Below the pieces are notes generated by a model. It had not been told where the DNA came from and searched no databases. It saw only the letters and a program-made list of their open reading frames with translations. The position numbers and the translations under genes are program-made. From Bacteroidia bacterium (GTDB lineage: Bacteria; Bacteroidota; Bacteroidia; M30B66): 37,697 bases of DNA. This document shows positions 11,930 through 16,910 of the stretch, piece by piece. The stretch's first letter is position 1, and every line of letters starts with the position of its first letter. The DNA lies in NCBI GenBank assembly GCA_018401705.1, contig JAGYKL010000030.1:1-37697 (forward strand). Direction: 5' to 3'.

Positions 11930-12364
11930 ATGGAACGCCGGACCTATTTTGCTGATATCATTGTACCTCTCTCTTTGCCGCGATTGTTTACTTACAGGGT
12001 GCCCGAGCTTTTGAGTCCCTTTGTTAAGCCATTGCAACGCGTAATCGTTCCATTTGGCAAGCGCAAAAGGTATACAGGCATCATTCACAGCGTTCACGAG
12101 AATCCTCCAAAAGGATATGAAGCACGTTATATCGATGAGATTCTGGAAATTAGTCCGGTTATTAATCCCTCTCATTTGAAGTTTTGGGAATGGATGGCCG
12201 AATATTACATGTGTTCTTTGGGAGAGGTAATGCAAGCCGCCTTGCCGGCGGGATTAAAACTCTCGAGTGAAACAGTGTTTAAGGCATTGAAAAAGCTTGA
12301 AGACGTTGACACTGAAACTTTGGCGATAGAGAATATCTCATTCTTGAAGCTCTTGAACAAGTGA
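11930..12364 (+). CDS. priA: Primosomal protein N' (PriA), N-terminal part (frameshifted)
   Basis: ATG 11930 is preferred over the upstream TTG at 11912 because the family starts at YFADIIVPLSLP. The frame carries the PriA 3'-DNA-binding domain (LFTYRVPELL, VIVPFGKRKRYTGII) and the start of the winged helix (EWMAEYYMCSLGEVMQAALPAGLK). It breaks near 12331. Restoring one G (GAGAAT to GAGGAAT) gives EEYLILEALEQVKELKV and joins the downstream frame. CATCTTTG at 11917-11924 resembles a Bacteroidetes -7 box. PriA restarts collapsed replication forks, so a true null would be costly; I expect the gene to be intact in the organism. Confidence 0.88.
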   Translation: MERRTYFADIIVPLSLPRLFTYRVPELLSPFVKPLQRVIVPFGKRKRYTGIIHSVHENPPKGYEARYIDEILEISPVINPSHLKFWEWMAEYYMCSLGEVMQAALPAGLKLSSETVFKALKKLEDVDTETLAIENISFLKLLNK

Positions 12365-14409
12365 AAGAGTTAAAGGTAAAAGATGTTGAAGGCATAGCCG
12401 GAATAAAGACTGTTTATCCAATCATTAAATCTATGATGGATAAGCGACTCATCGTTGCCGAAGAAGAGTTAAAGGAGATTTTCAAGCAGAAGACTGTGGC
12501 AATGCTTAAGCTTTCGGCAGATTATAGTGGACAAGATGCGCTGCATCAACTTTTAGATTCTCTTAACCGAGCCCCAAAGCAACAGGAGCTTGTTTTGGCT
12601 TATATGAGCATGTTTCCCGGTGTAACCGGGGATTGGGAATTGGTGAGTAGAAAATCACTTTTAGAAAAGTCAGGAAATTCTACTCCAACAGCACTTAATG
12701 CACTTGTTAAAAAAGGAGTGTTTCAAGGGGAAGATGTTGTTGTAAGTCGATTAACCGGAGCTGATAAATTGCAGAATAAATTTCCAGACTTAAATGAGCT
12801 GCAAAAATCGGCTTTAAATGAAATCAATGAAGGTTTTGCCGAAAGCAAGCCCGTTTTATTATTTGGAATAACCGGAAGTGGAAAAACAGAAGTTTACCTT
12901 GAACTCATAAAAGAGCAAATTGCCAAGGGTAAGCAAGTGCTTTATCTATTACCCGAAATCGCTCTAACAGCGCAGATTATCCAAAGATTGAGAATCTGTT
13001 TCGGAAGGAAGGTGCAGATTTATCACTCGAAATTTAGCGAGAACGAGCGCGTTGAAGTGTGGAATGCTATTTCAGAGGCTGATCCCGATTCCGGGATGAT
13101 AGTATTGGGTGCCAGGTCTTCGGTGTTTTTACCTTTCAAAAACCTGGGTTTGGTAATCGTTGATGAAGAACACGAAACTACCTTTAAACAGCATGAGCCC
13201 AATCCAAAGTATCATGCTCGCGATAGTGCAATGGTGCTTGCAAAATTCTCAAAAGCCGACATTCTATTGGGTACAGCTACACCTTCGGTGGAAAGTTATT
13301 TTAATGCTAAAGCAGGAAAATACAAGCTCGTTAGAATGAATGAGCGATTTGGTGGCTCTGTTTTGCCCGAGATTAGCATTGTTGATTTGAGAGTCGATAC
13401 CAAGAAAAGAAAAATGAAAGGCCTGTTTTCATCTGACTTGGTAGATGAAATTCAGGATACAATTTCTCAGAAAAAACAGGTAATTCTCTTTCAAAACCGA
13501 AGAGGTTTCTCTCCAATGATTGAATGTCAAAATTGCCATTGGGTTCCACATTGTGTGCAATGCGATATCAGCCTCACTTACCACAAACAGATTCATCAGC
13601 TCAGATGCCATTATTGCGGATACAGCTTAAATGTTCCTTCTAAATGTGATGAGTGTAAGTCTACAGATTTGAGAATGAAAGGCTTTGGCACTGAGAAGAT
13701 TGAGGAGGAGCTAACAGAGCTTTTTCCTGACGTATCTGCCTCGCGAATGGATTTAGACACAACTCGCTCTAAGTATTCTTACCATAAAATCATAGATGAT
13801 TTTGAGAATGAAAGAACGCAGGTACTTATTGGCACCCAAATGGTTAGCAAAGGGCTCGATTTTAACAATGTTAATCTGGTGTCTATTTTAAGTGCAGATG
13901 CAATGTTAAATTACCCTGACTTCAGGGCATTTGAGCGAAGTTTTCAGCTTATTTCACAAGTTGCTGGCCGTGCCGGCCGGAGGGAAACCCTAGGCAAAGT
14001 GCTAATACAAACATGGAAACCCGAACATGAAATACTCAAGCGCATTCAGGAGTACGATTTTGATGGCTTTTTCAACACAGAACTCGCAGAAAGAAAAACG
14101 CACAACTATCCACCTTTCAGCCGAATAATACATGTAACTCTCAAGCATGAGCATCAATCGGCGCTAGACCCGGCTGCTGATGCTTTGGCTTCCTGGTTAA
14201 GGTCGGCATTTGGAGATCGGGTTTTGGGACCTGAATATCCGCCTGTGTCAAGAGTGAGGAACTTATTTCAAAAGAGGATGCTCCTCAAGATTGAAAATGA
14301 GGCTTCCTTATCAAAAGTTAAAACTACGCTCAGAGAGCAAATTGATAGATTTTTTGAGGCTAATAAGTTAAAGGCATTCAGACTAATGATTGATGTTGAT
14401 CCGGTTTAG
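12361..14409 (+). CDS. priA: Primosomal protein N' (PriA), helicase part
   Basis: This frame holds nearly all of the PriA motor: Walker A GITGSGKTEVYLEL, then LLPEIALTAQI, the DEEH box in LVIVDEEHETTFKQ, GTATPSVESY, eight zinc-binding cysteines as CxxC pairs (CQNCHWVPHCVQCD, then CHYCGYS and CDECKS), GTQMVSKGLDF and QVAGRAGRRE. Joined with the previous entry the protein is about 826 residues, normal for PriA. The nominal GTG start at 12361 is not real, because the frame is open upstream and encodes the missing winged-helix residues. The stop codon ends at the first base of a palindromic repeat cluster. Confidence 0.92.
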   Translation: MKELKVKDVEGIAGIKTVYPIIKSMMDKRLIVAEEELKEIFKQKTVAMLKLSADYSGQDALHQLLDSLNRAPKQQELVLAYMSMFPGVTGDWELVSRKSLLEKSGNSTPTALNALVKKGVFQGEDVVVSRLTGADKLQNKFPDLNELQKSALNEINEGFAESKPVLLFGITGSGKTEVYLELIKEQIAKGKQVLYLLPEIALTAQIIQRLRICFGRKVQIYHSKFSENERVEVWNAISEADPDSGMIVLGARSSVFLPFKNLGLVIVDEEHETTFKQHEPNPKYHARDSAMVLAKFSKADILLGTATPSVESYFNAKAGKYKLVRMNERFGGSVLPEISIVDLRVDTKKRKMKGLFSSDLVDEIQDTISQKKQVILFQNRRGFSPMIECQNCHWVPHCVQCDISLTYHKQIHQLRCHYCGYSLNVPSKCDECKSTDLRMKGFGTEKIEEELTELFPDVSASRMDLDTTRSKYSYHKIIDDFENERTQVLIGTQMVSKGLDFNNVNLVSILSADAMLNYPDFRAFERSFQLISQVAGRAGRRETLGKVLIQTWKPEHEILKRIQEYDFDGFFNTELAERKTHNYPPFSRIIHVTLKHEHQSALDPAADALASWLRSAFGDRVLGPEYPPVSRVRNLFQKRMLLKIENEASLSKVKTTLREQIDRFFEANKLKAFRLMIDVDPV

Positions 14410-14475
14410 GTCCTCCTGAGCTTGTCGAAAAACAACGGTGATTCAAGTCCCCCTGAGCTTGTCGAAGGGGGACTT
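14409..14475. repeat. REP-like palindrome cluster 1 (between priA and GIY-YIG gene)
   Basis: A half copy (GTCCTCCTGAGCTTGTCGAA, 14410-14429) followed by AAAACAACGGTGATTC leads into a full palindrome at 14445-14475: AAGTCCCCC, loop TGAGCTTGTCGAA, GGGGGACTT. The cluster begins at the priA stop codon and may serve as its terminator. From 14476 to 14584 the DNA holds no clear element besides the upstream region of the GIY-YIG gene. Confidence 0.85.
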
Positions 14476-14584
14476 ACTTTTATTTTTTGTAGAAACAGAG
14501 GACCATTGCGATAATTAGCCGCGACTTTCTAACAAGTTGATAGTCTGGACTATGCATGTCGTATATTTCGGTTTTTAATTACAG

Positions 14585-14899
14585 ATGCCTTTCAAAACCT
14601 ATTATGTATACATTTTAAAGTGCAGCGATGACTCATATTATGTAGGCGTAACCAACAACATAATAAGAAGGATGAATGAACATCAGACCGGGCGAAGTAT
14701 AAAGTCTTATACTTTTGATAGGAGGCCCCTTAAGCTGGTTTATTCAAGGGAGTTCACCAATATCCTAAAAGCAATAGCTTATGAAAAGCAACTCAAAGGC
14801 TGGAGAAGAGCAAAAAAGGAAGCTTTAATTGAAGGGAGATTAGATGATTTGGTTGAGTTTTCTAGGGCAAGTAGTCATGGTTCGACAGGCTCACCATGA
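14585..14899 (+). CDS. GIY-YIG nuclease family protein (UPF0213-like)
   Basis: A single GIY-YIG domain of 104 residues: YYVYILKCSDDSYYVGVTNN (GIY and YIG equivalents YVY and YVG), then IIRRMNEHQTG with the conserved Arg, and AIAYEKQLKGWRR with the catalytic Glu. These small stand-alone nucleases are common in Bacteroidetes; their biological role is not settled. The last residues (SSHGSTGSP) are encoded by a palindromic repeat that starts at 14873, so the stop codon lies inside the repeat. Repeats of the same family flank the gene on both sides, which hints at a functional or mobility link. Confidence 0.9.
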   Translation: MPFKTYYVYILKCSDDSYYVGVTNNIIRRMNEHQTGRSIKSYTFDRRPLKLVYSREFTNILKAIAYEKQLKGWRRAKKEALIEGRLDDLVEFSRASSHGSTGSP

Positions 14900-15119
14900 C
14901 TAGCAAAGTCACTCTTAGCTTGTCGAAGAGTGACTGCCCTCGACAGGCTCACCATGACTACTCAAGTCCCCCTGAGCTTGTCGAAAAACAGCGGTGATTA
15001 AGGTCCCCCTGAGCTTGTCGAATGGGGGCTTGTCGAAAAACAGCGGTGATTAAGGTCCCCCTGAGCTTGTCGAAAAACAGCGGTGATTAAGGTCCCCCTG
15101 AGCTTGTCGAAGGGGGGGC
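14873..15119. repeat. REP-like palindrome cluster 2 (between GIY-YIG gene and lepA)
   Basis: Contents in order: full palindrome 14873-14901 (AGTCATGG, loop TTCGACAGGCTCA, CCATGACT); full palindrome 14907-14935 (AGTCACTC, loop TTAGCTTGTCGAA, GAGTGACT); a one-armed copy about 14939-14959 ending CCATGACT; and then four copies of GTCCCCCTGAGCTTGTCGAA at about 14966, 15003, 15054 and 15091. Between these copies lies the spacer AAACAGCGGTGATTAAG. The last copy runs into a G-tract just before the lepA stop codon. The cluster separates two convergent genes. Confidence 0.9.
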
Positions 15120-16910
15120 TTAATCCAACTTCAAAACAGCCATAAATGCCGACTGCGGAACTTCCACAGAGCCAACTTGGCGCATACGTTTCTTCCCTTC
15201 TTTCTGCTTTTCTAAAAGCTTGCGTTTACGTGAAATATCTCCACCATAACACTTGGCAGTAACGTCTTTTCGCATTGCTTTCACTGTTTCGCGAGCAATT
15301 ACTTTTGCACCAATCGAAGCTTGAATGGCAATTTCGAACTGCTGCTTTGGAATTAACTCTTTAAGCTTTTCGCAAATGCGCTTTCCGAAATCGTATGCAT
15401 TATCTCTGTGAATCAATGATGAAAGCGCATCAACCGGTTCGCCGTTTAACATCAAATCTAACTTGATTAGTTTAGACTCACGATAGTCAATCGGATGATA
15501 GTCGAATGATGCATAGCCACGAGAGATGGACTTAAGTTTATCATAGAAATCGAATACGATTTCGCCCATTGGCATCTCAAAGACTAGTTCAACGCGGTCG
15601 GTAGTAAGGTAGTTTTGATTAACTAAAATCCCTCGTTTCTGAATGCACAGCGTCATAATTGCGCCAGTATATTCAGATTTTGTGATTACCTGAGCCCTAA
15701 TAAATGGTTCTTCAATTCTATCCAGCTTACTTGGGTCGGGAAGGTCTGTTGGATTGTTTACCACCATATCATCACCATTGGTTTGGTAAGCATGGTAAGA
15801 AACGTTAGGAACAGTGGTGATTACTGTCATACCGAACTCTCTTTCCAACCTTTCCTGAATAATCTCCATGTGGAGCATCCCTAAGAAACCGCAACGGAAA
15901 CCAAATCCCAGCGCAGCTGAAGATTCAGGCTCGAATGTTAGTGAAGCATCATTTAACTGAAGCTTTTCCATCGAATAGCGAAGCTCTTCATAATCTTCTG
16001 TATCTACCGGGAAAATTCCCGCAAAAACCATAGGTTTTACATCCTCAAATCCTTTGATTTGCTCAGCACATGGACGATCAACATGAGTAATTGTGTCACC
16101 TACTTTTACTTCGCGTGCTTCCTTAATTCCAGAAATTAAGTAACCTACATCTCCGGTTTTTACTTCATCGCGGGCTTCCGGTTTTAATCTTAAAAGGCCA
16201 ATCTCATCTGCAAAATAGGTGCTGCCAGTCGACATGAACTTAACTTTATCACCTTTCTTGATGGAGCCGTTCATGACTCTGAAGTATGCATAAATTCCTC
16301 TGAAGGAGTTAAATACAGAATCAAAAATCAATGCCTGAAGAGGAGCATCCGGATCTCCTTTTGGAGCAGGAACTCTTGCTACAATAGCTTCTAGAATGTC
16401 ATTTACGCCCATCCCGGTTTTACCGGAAGCAGGAATAATATCTTCCCGGCGACAGCCGATCATATCTACAATTTGATCAGAAACTTCTTCAGGATTTGCA
16501 CCCGGAAGATCCATCTTATTCATAATTGGGATAATTTCAAGATCGTGTTCAAGAGCAAGATATAGATTGCTAATTGTCTGAGCTTGAATGCCCTGAGCAG
16601 CATCTACAATAAGGAGTGCACCTTCGCAGGCAGCAATAGAACGTGACACTTCGTATGAAAAATCAACGTGACCCGGGGTGTCAATTAGATTAAGAATATA
16701 CTTCTGTCCATCAGGAGAATTATACTCCATTTTTATGGCCTTACTTTTAATGGTAATTCCTCTCTCTCTCTCCAAATCCATATCATCAAGCACCTGAGCT
16801 TGAGATTCACGCTTGGTGATAGTATTGGTATATTCGAGCAAACGATCGGCTAGGGTAGATTTACCATGGTCGATGTGAGCGATAATGCAAAAATTGCGGA
16901 TGTTCTTCAT
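15120..16910 (-). CDS. lepA: Elongation factor 4 (LepA GTPase)
   Basis: A 596-residue translational GTPase of normal LepA length. G-domain motifs are [38 protein letters not shown] and MNKMDLPGA. The C-terminal half has the LepA-specific parts [20 protein letters not shown] and a terminal domain with [18 protein letters not shown] and [18 protein letters not shown]. LepA acts on stalled or mistranslocated ribosomes. A TATCTTTG box lies eight bases before the ATG. The stop codon lies directly against palindrome cluster 2. Confidence 0.97.

Follow-up and report, generated by a model that had tools for sequence, protein, structure and literature searches.

A small gene for a single-domain GIY-YIG nuclease in a Bacteroidia bacterium (assembly GCA_018401705.1, contig JAGYKL010000030.1, positions 1 to 37,697; this whole 37,697-nucleotide stretch is the window) is bracketed by hairpin repeats of one family, as are most of the homologous genes that we located in other phyla. 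Gene and hairpins probably form one small mobile unit, analogous to the REPtron, in which repetitive extragenic palindromes (REPs) surround the gene of a REP-associated tyrosine transposase (RAYT), with a GIY-YIG enzyme in place of the RAYT. Several features of the sequences lead us to this view. The clade is bracketed by inverted matching hairpins drawn from a genome-wide population, and loop type cosegregates with the clade of the protein. The reading frame often closes within the downstream hairpin. At one site, some strains carry the unit and others lack it, and a copy with an internal deletion occurs as well. With less assurance, we also lean toward single-domain GIY-YIG proteins being the dedicated enzymes of a CGTC/GTC-tagged REP superfamily, whose phylum-spanning minimal elements, free of an HUH transposase, would be a second and independent way of spreading REPs.

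The nuclease gene of the window is flanked by nine units of a single GTC-tagged family, two upstream (14410 and 14447) and seven downstream (14882-15110, starting at 14882 on the minus strand, 14908, 14940 on the minus strand, 14966, 15003, 15055, and 15092). The features are as follows.

14410-14428, plus strand: left half of a hairpin unit, GTC-CTCCT-GAGCTTGTCGA
14445-14475, plus strand: upstream hairpin AAGTCCCCCT[GAGCTTGTCGA]AGGGGGACTT, 10-bp stem; DNA fold dG -9.6 kcal/mol, z -3.84
14585-14899, plus strand: GIY-YIG single-domain nuclease gene (PF01541), with its last 9 residues and stop codon from the downstream hairpin
14872-14902, minus strand: downstream hairpin TAGTCATGGT[GAGCCTGTCGA]ACCATGACTA, holding the nuclease stop codon; DNA fold dG -7.8 kcal/mol, z -4.46
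14908-14936, plus strand: variant unit GTCACTCT[TAGCTTGTCGA]AGAGTGAC
14940-14958, minus strand: second GTCATGGTGAGCCTGTCGA unit, inverted; also scored as a direct repeat
14966-15084, plus strand: three degenerate units GTCCCCCTGAGCTTGTCGA (14966, 15003, and 15055)
15092-15116, plus strand: hairpin GTCCCCCTGAGCTTGTCGAAGGGGG

Within these units, GTC stands at a constant distance ahead of a GAG/TAG...CGA core and is often paired within the stem. Near-matches to GCTTGTCGAA numbered 10 in the window and 2.0 (standard deviation, 1.6) in shuffled sequences, none of which reached 10. An earlier reading made without database searches (the sequence-only reading) had described one-family clusters on both sides of the gene, a stop codon inside a palindrome, and a repeat-encoded C terminus. 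All three descriptions hold: the stop codon (TGA, 14897-14899) lies within the palindrome at 14872-14902, which extends one base farther in both directions than the 14873-14901 given then, and the C-terminal residues SSHGSTGSP are the translation of the hairpin. An Rfam scan also returned a subthreshold RAGATH-25 match over the upstream hairpin (14448-14491, minus strand; E = 0.023; 21.4 bits, under half of the gathering score of 49), which we took as chance.

The association recurs across phyla. When we aligned 25 homologues and searched one genome of each species with the alignment, we obtained 80 loci from Bacteroidota, Ignavibacteria, Nitrospinota, Nitrospirota, Chloroflexi, Actinobacteria, Proteobacteria, and others. 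Our first motif, TGA...TCGAA, occurred at about 2 per kb within 100 bp of the gene and about 0.02 per kb beyond 1 kb. That core was too narrow, since some loci (L107 and L343 among them) carry C-G in place of T-A, and a strict search for perfect stems with short loops was dropped because it missed these hairpins. The widened core required an outer stem of 5 bp or more, followed by GAG, 2 to 40 nt, and CGA. It placed one or more hairpins within 400 bp of the gene in 58 of 77 unbiased loci, as opposed to 0 to 2 of 77 with scrambled cores, and in 62 of 81 loci of a separate class sample; hairpins stood on both sides in 39 and 38 of these loci, respectively, bracketing the gene as in REPtrons. Taken together, the 158 loci were flanked in about 75% of cases across phyla, with matched controls near zero. 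Hairpin density dropped about 60-fold at distances greater than 1 kb. Other genes within the homologous loci had such a hairpin in only 30 of 324 cases (Fisher P = 4.9e-31), and when the comparison was confined to intergenic DNA the densities were 4.1 and 0.32 hairpins per kb. The hairpins flanked none of 20 Y1_Tnp (RAYT/IS200) genes of the same class, for which reason a RAYT was rejected as the driver, and none of 20 other GIY-YIG (PF01541) genes. Because the core was widened after some loci had been inspected, the TGA...TCGAA motif and the proteobacterial set described below are the cleaner confirmations.

The hairpins on the two sides usually resemble each other and are inverted. The inner five stem bases were common to both sides in 52 of 78 two-sided loci (shuffling of loci gave a mean of 5.4 and a maximum of 11). 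The nearest upstream hairpin was in the plus orientation in 72 of 96 cases (P = 1e-6) and the nearest downstream hairpin in the minus orientation in 76 of 107 (P = 1.6e-5); therefore, the gene usually lies inside an inverted hairpin pair, at the spacer position of a REP dimer. Of 391 hairpins near the gene, 220 had GTC precisely at positions -8 to -6 relative to the core. Of 116 loci, 37 had a nuclease reading frame that continued into the downstream hairpin, and tails such as HGSTGSP, HPSTGSG, and SNGSTSSP recurred; the first of these is also found in a Chloroflexi homologue.

Loop type tracks protein clade. Five loop types scored on a protein tree of 81 members required 27 changes, compared with 44.5 when labels were shuffled, and none of 200 shuffles was as low. 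Nearly all type D loops (TGAGCGNAGCGAA or TGAGGNACGAA) fell in one eight-row clade with a support of 100, whereas types C and E clustered weakly. Since these two types are weakly clustered and most forks of the tree are unresolved, we regard the result as an association and not as a fine specificity code.

At the level of whole genomes, we counted repeats with pattern searches. The window's genome (G000; 3.74 Mb in 95 contigs) contains 29 exact copies of TGAGCTTGTCGAA in about ten clusters and no copy of the reversed control pattern. Among ten genomes of the order, several copies were found only in the three with a homologue (G000, 29; G008, 21; G007, 5), and each of the others had 0 or 1. Two paralogues in the window's genome have distinct hairpin types (C24, TGAGCTTGTCGAA; C13, TGAGCGGAGTCGAA); the second close paralogue, on contig 13, has the different type GGTGCCTGAGCGGAGTCGAAGGCACC downstream. 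On contig 34 of this genome (L016, 1470-1910), about 16 tandem 28-bp copies comprise only the left half of a hairpin (GTCCCCCTGAGCTTGTCGAGAATTTTGA), with the full palindrome only at the end. The earlier statement that no RAYT is present is correct for the window but not for the genome, which has two Y1_Tnp matches elsewhere. Across 295 genomes of the class, the clade gene was detected in 82 of 94 repeat-rich genomes (rich in any of three loop types) and in 96 of 201 others (P = 2.6e-11, uncorrected for phylogeny, genome size, and assembly gaps).

Plasmid records searched with a D-clade protein contained homologues in Azospirillum lipoferum, Novosphingobium aromaticivorans, Sinorhizobium meliloti, Shinella, Rhizobium, Neorhizobium, Aeromonas, Photobacterium, Sphingobium, and Neisseria. 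Tagged hairpins, such as cgtcATCCCCGC[GAAG]GCGGGGATcca, were found within 350 bp in all 12 loci examined. Their density was 3.7 per kb near the gene and 0.38 per kb far from it; in this count, a Methylobacterium locus lacking hairpins was added to the 12. Most of the 12 loci carry hairpins that agree with the definition of CGTC REPs (a CGTC, TGTC, or CCTC tag, an 8- to 9-bp stem, a 4- to 5-nt loop, and a CCA tail); those of Novosphingobium and Sphingobium depart from it in stem start and tail. CGTC REPs, which include dRS3 of Neisseria and RPE-4/6 of Rickettsia, "apparently lack a dedicated transposase," and their means of spread was left open (Di Nocera et al. 2013, PMC3733652).

Several loci display signs of mobility. 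Aligned strains differ at one Sphingobium plasmid site, with REP-gene-REP in three, a lone REP in two, and neither in two. In Sinorhizobium, an internal-deletion copy, in which the two REPs and the gene's 3' end remain, adjoins a full copy, and two Rhizobium plasmids differ by the presence or absence of a whole REP dimer. The Azospirillum cassette splits the suf operon between sufB and sufC. In Sphingobium TomTYG73 (L384), a one-base deletion shifts the reading frame of the nuclease gene, leaving a decayed copy in an otherwise intact cassette. On a Planktothrix plasmid (L378), a GIY-YIG/hairpin cassette has an MmeI-type restriction gene on one side and the DISARM helicase gene drmA on the other.

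The 104-residue open reading frame in the window (14585-14899, plus strand) matches PF01541 (E = 1e-17) and no other domain. It is placed in the gap between two convergent genes, which from their translations we take to be priA-like (12361-14409, plus strand) and lepA-like (15120-16910, minus strand). Residues Y9, Y19, G21, R29, H33, and E67 are invariant in the 25-homologue alignment, and with the catalytic Tyr, Tyr, Arg, His, and Glu conserved, the window protein belongs to the GIY-YIG superfamily as a predicted nuclease. The closest solved sequence in the PDB is 1zg2 (E = 6.7e-21), and UPF0213 proteins are the nearest solved relatives; the only named nuclease among the matches is Slx1 (7cq2), a weak one (E = 0.007). 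These two relationships make a structured-DNA substrate plausible. PADLOC gave no match to its models of known anti-phage defence systems, and the interpretation as a defence system was dropped on this ground. A different group of small GIY-YIG genes, without REP hairpins, stands directly after tRNA genes (tRNA-Met and tRNA-Asp by eye) or between a tRNA gene and 23S rRNA (L003 1494-1761, L004/L006, and L040 at about 1480-1770); one rRNA-side copy of this group is degenerate.

In a mobile unit of the kind proposed, the nuclease would recognize a conserved foot and loop (the GTC tag with a GAG...CGA or CGTC-type core) in extruded or single-stranded DNA and would nick or cut there. Repair of the break from another copy could then place REPs at new sites or within REP dimers that already exist; the version with the gene would be copied in this way more rarely. 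The solo and paired hairpins elsewhere would be nonautonomous derivatives of the nuclease unit. GIY-YIG enzymes hydrolyze DNA and form no covalent DNA intermediate as RAYTs do. For this reason, we favor a repair-driven mechanism resembling homing over single-strand transposition in the manner of RAYTs, and the process would have to differ from that of IS200/IS605-type elements.

Some observations weigh against this proposal. About 25% of the homologous loci have no recognized hairpin, and many matches of a wider profile, A3 (for example, L346-L361), have few or no hairpins of the stricter TGA type. The protein tree, built on few columns, has weak fork support; the P value for co-occurrence is, as noted, uncorrected; and the lone-REP alleles of Sphingobium have diverged flanks, so that insertion and loss would both account for them. 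Moreover, the clade gene was undetected in 12 repeat-rich genomes, one of which, the single-contig G048, has 195 copies of TGAGCGNAGYCGAA with neither the clade gene nor Y1_Tnp detected. The nuclease is therefore not required for repeat persistence. As a parallel, many E. coli strains have lost their REPtrons by deletion (Di Nocera et al. 2013, PMC3733652). In one draft genome (G254), small GIY-YIG genes lie at the ends of contigs 61, 69, and 91, a sign that the repeats may interrupt assembly and that absence of the clade gene from draft genomes may be overcounted. The sequence-only reading had offered the nuclease, from co-location, as a candidate to nick, spread, or maintain the hairpins. 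The comparison across phyla supports this candidacy and makes the nuclease the best candidate so far for spreading a class of repeats that had no enzyme assigned to it. The checks turned out in its favor in the flanking of homologues by matching hairpins, in the higher frequency of the gene among repeat-rich genomes, and in the tracking of protein clade by loop type. One observation named at that time as adverse, abundant repeats in genomes lacking the gene, did occur.

The spacer position of the gene would also suit a parasite, that is, a homing endonuclease targeting preexisting REP dimers that another agent spreads. The weak similarity of the D clade to group I intron endonucleases, the repeat-rich genomes without the gene, and the lone REPs at the Sphingobium site all point the same way. 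We nevertheless consider this unlikely, because no other spreading agent was found, either among the Y1_Tnp loci or, for CGTC REPs, by Di Nocera et al. (2013; PMC3733652), because Rfam scans of the window stretch and eight homologous loci revealed no group I intron, which removed that candidate, and because nuclease gene and repeat number co-occur across genomes. Host hairpin maintenance, in which a Slx1-like structure-specific enzyme resolves REP cruciforms without moving them, would make the hairpins a substrate and agrees with Slx1 being the sole named nuclease matched. It is quite improbable, since a housekeeping enzyme need not be bracketed by its own substrate or vary in copy number, would not be expected to decay as in TYG73 or to occupy unrelated sites such as the sufB/sufC gap, and should not be absent from some repeat-rich genomes.

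Hardly credible is passive co-location, the piling up of REPs in intergenic gaps beside dispensable genes. The priA-like/lepA-like gap of the window is a setting of this type. REPs occupy intergenic DNA, frequently in the gap between convergent genes (PMC3733652). Nonetheless, enrichment was still 13-fold in the intergenic-only comparison, other dispensable genes (Y1_Tnp and other small GIY-YIG) had no hairpins in 20 loci each, and passive accumulation predicts neither matched stems, nor orientation, nor the association of loop with protein.

If gene and hairpins do form a mobile unit, CGTC REPs, including dRS3 and RPE-4/6, gain a concrete candidate for their enzyme, and its matched substrates occur in species that can be cultured. 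The proposal would also account for the scattered, decayed, and multicopy state of small GIY-YIG genes and for the sharing of GTC...GAG...CGA hairpins by unrelated bacteria. We found no paper linking GIY-YIG genes to REPs in the open-licence PMC literature, and subscription journals may hold prior art.

Among known systems, CGTC REPs share with the hairpins of the proteobacterial relatives the CGTC, TGTC, or CCTC tag, a stem of 8 to 9 bp usually starting with AT, a loop of 4 to 5 nt, and mostly a CCA tail, as well as the species Azospirillum lipoferum, Novosphingobium aromaticivorans, and Sinorhizobium meliloti and the genus Neisseria. The window units differ: they have AGTC or GGTC instead of these tags, their GAG...CGA loop is longer, the CCA tail is missing, and an AT stem start is confined to their GTCATGG members. 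Judged by tag, stem, loop, and tail, the proteobacterial repeats fit the CGTC definition and the window repeats fit it partly. UPF0213/YhbQ-like proteins (PDB 1zg2 and 1ywl) and Slx1 share the fold family and catalytic residues of the window protein; we know of no link between them and repeats, and the other GIY-YIG genes tested were unflanked. Free-standing or intron-borne homing endonucleases of the I-TevI type are also GIY-YIG nucleases and may likewise spread by cutting and repair, but the window gene has no intron and no extra DNA-binding domain and is bracketed by a genome-wide hairpin family. The closest parallel is with RAYT (TnpA-REP) REPtrons, where small dispersed tagged hairpins, often inverted dimers, surround one gene for a DNA-cutting enzyme and enzyme type follows hairpin type. 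There, the enzyme is an HUH/Y1 transposase (PF01797) and the tag is GTAG, whereas here the enzyme has PF01541 as its only domain and the tag is GTC or CGTC, with GTC in all window units. Thus, the unit would work like a REPtron yet, in its predicted enzyme class and its tag, is not a RAYT REPtron.
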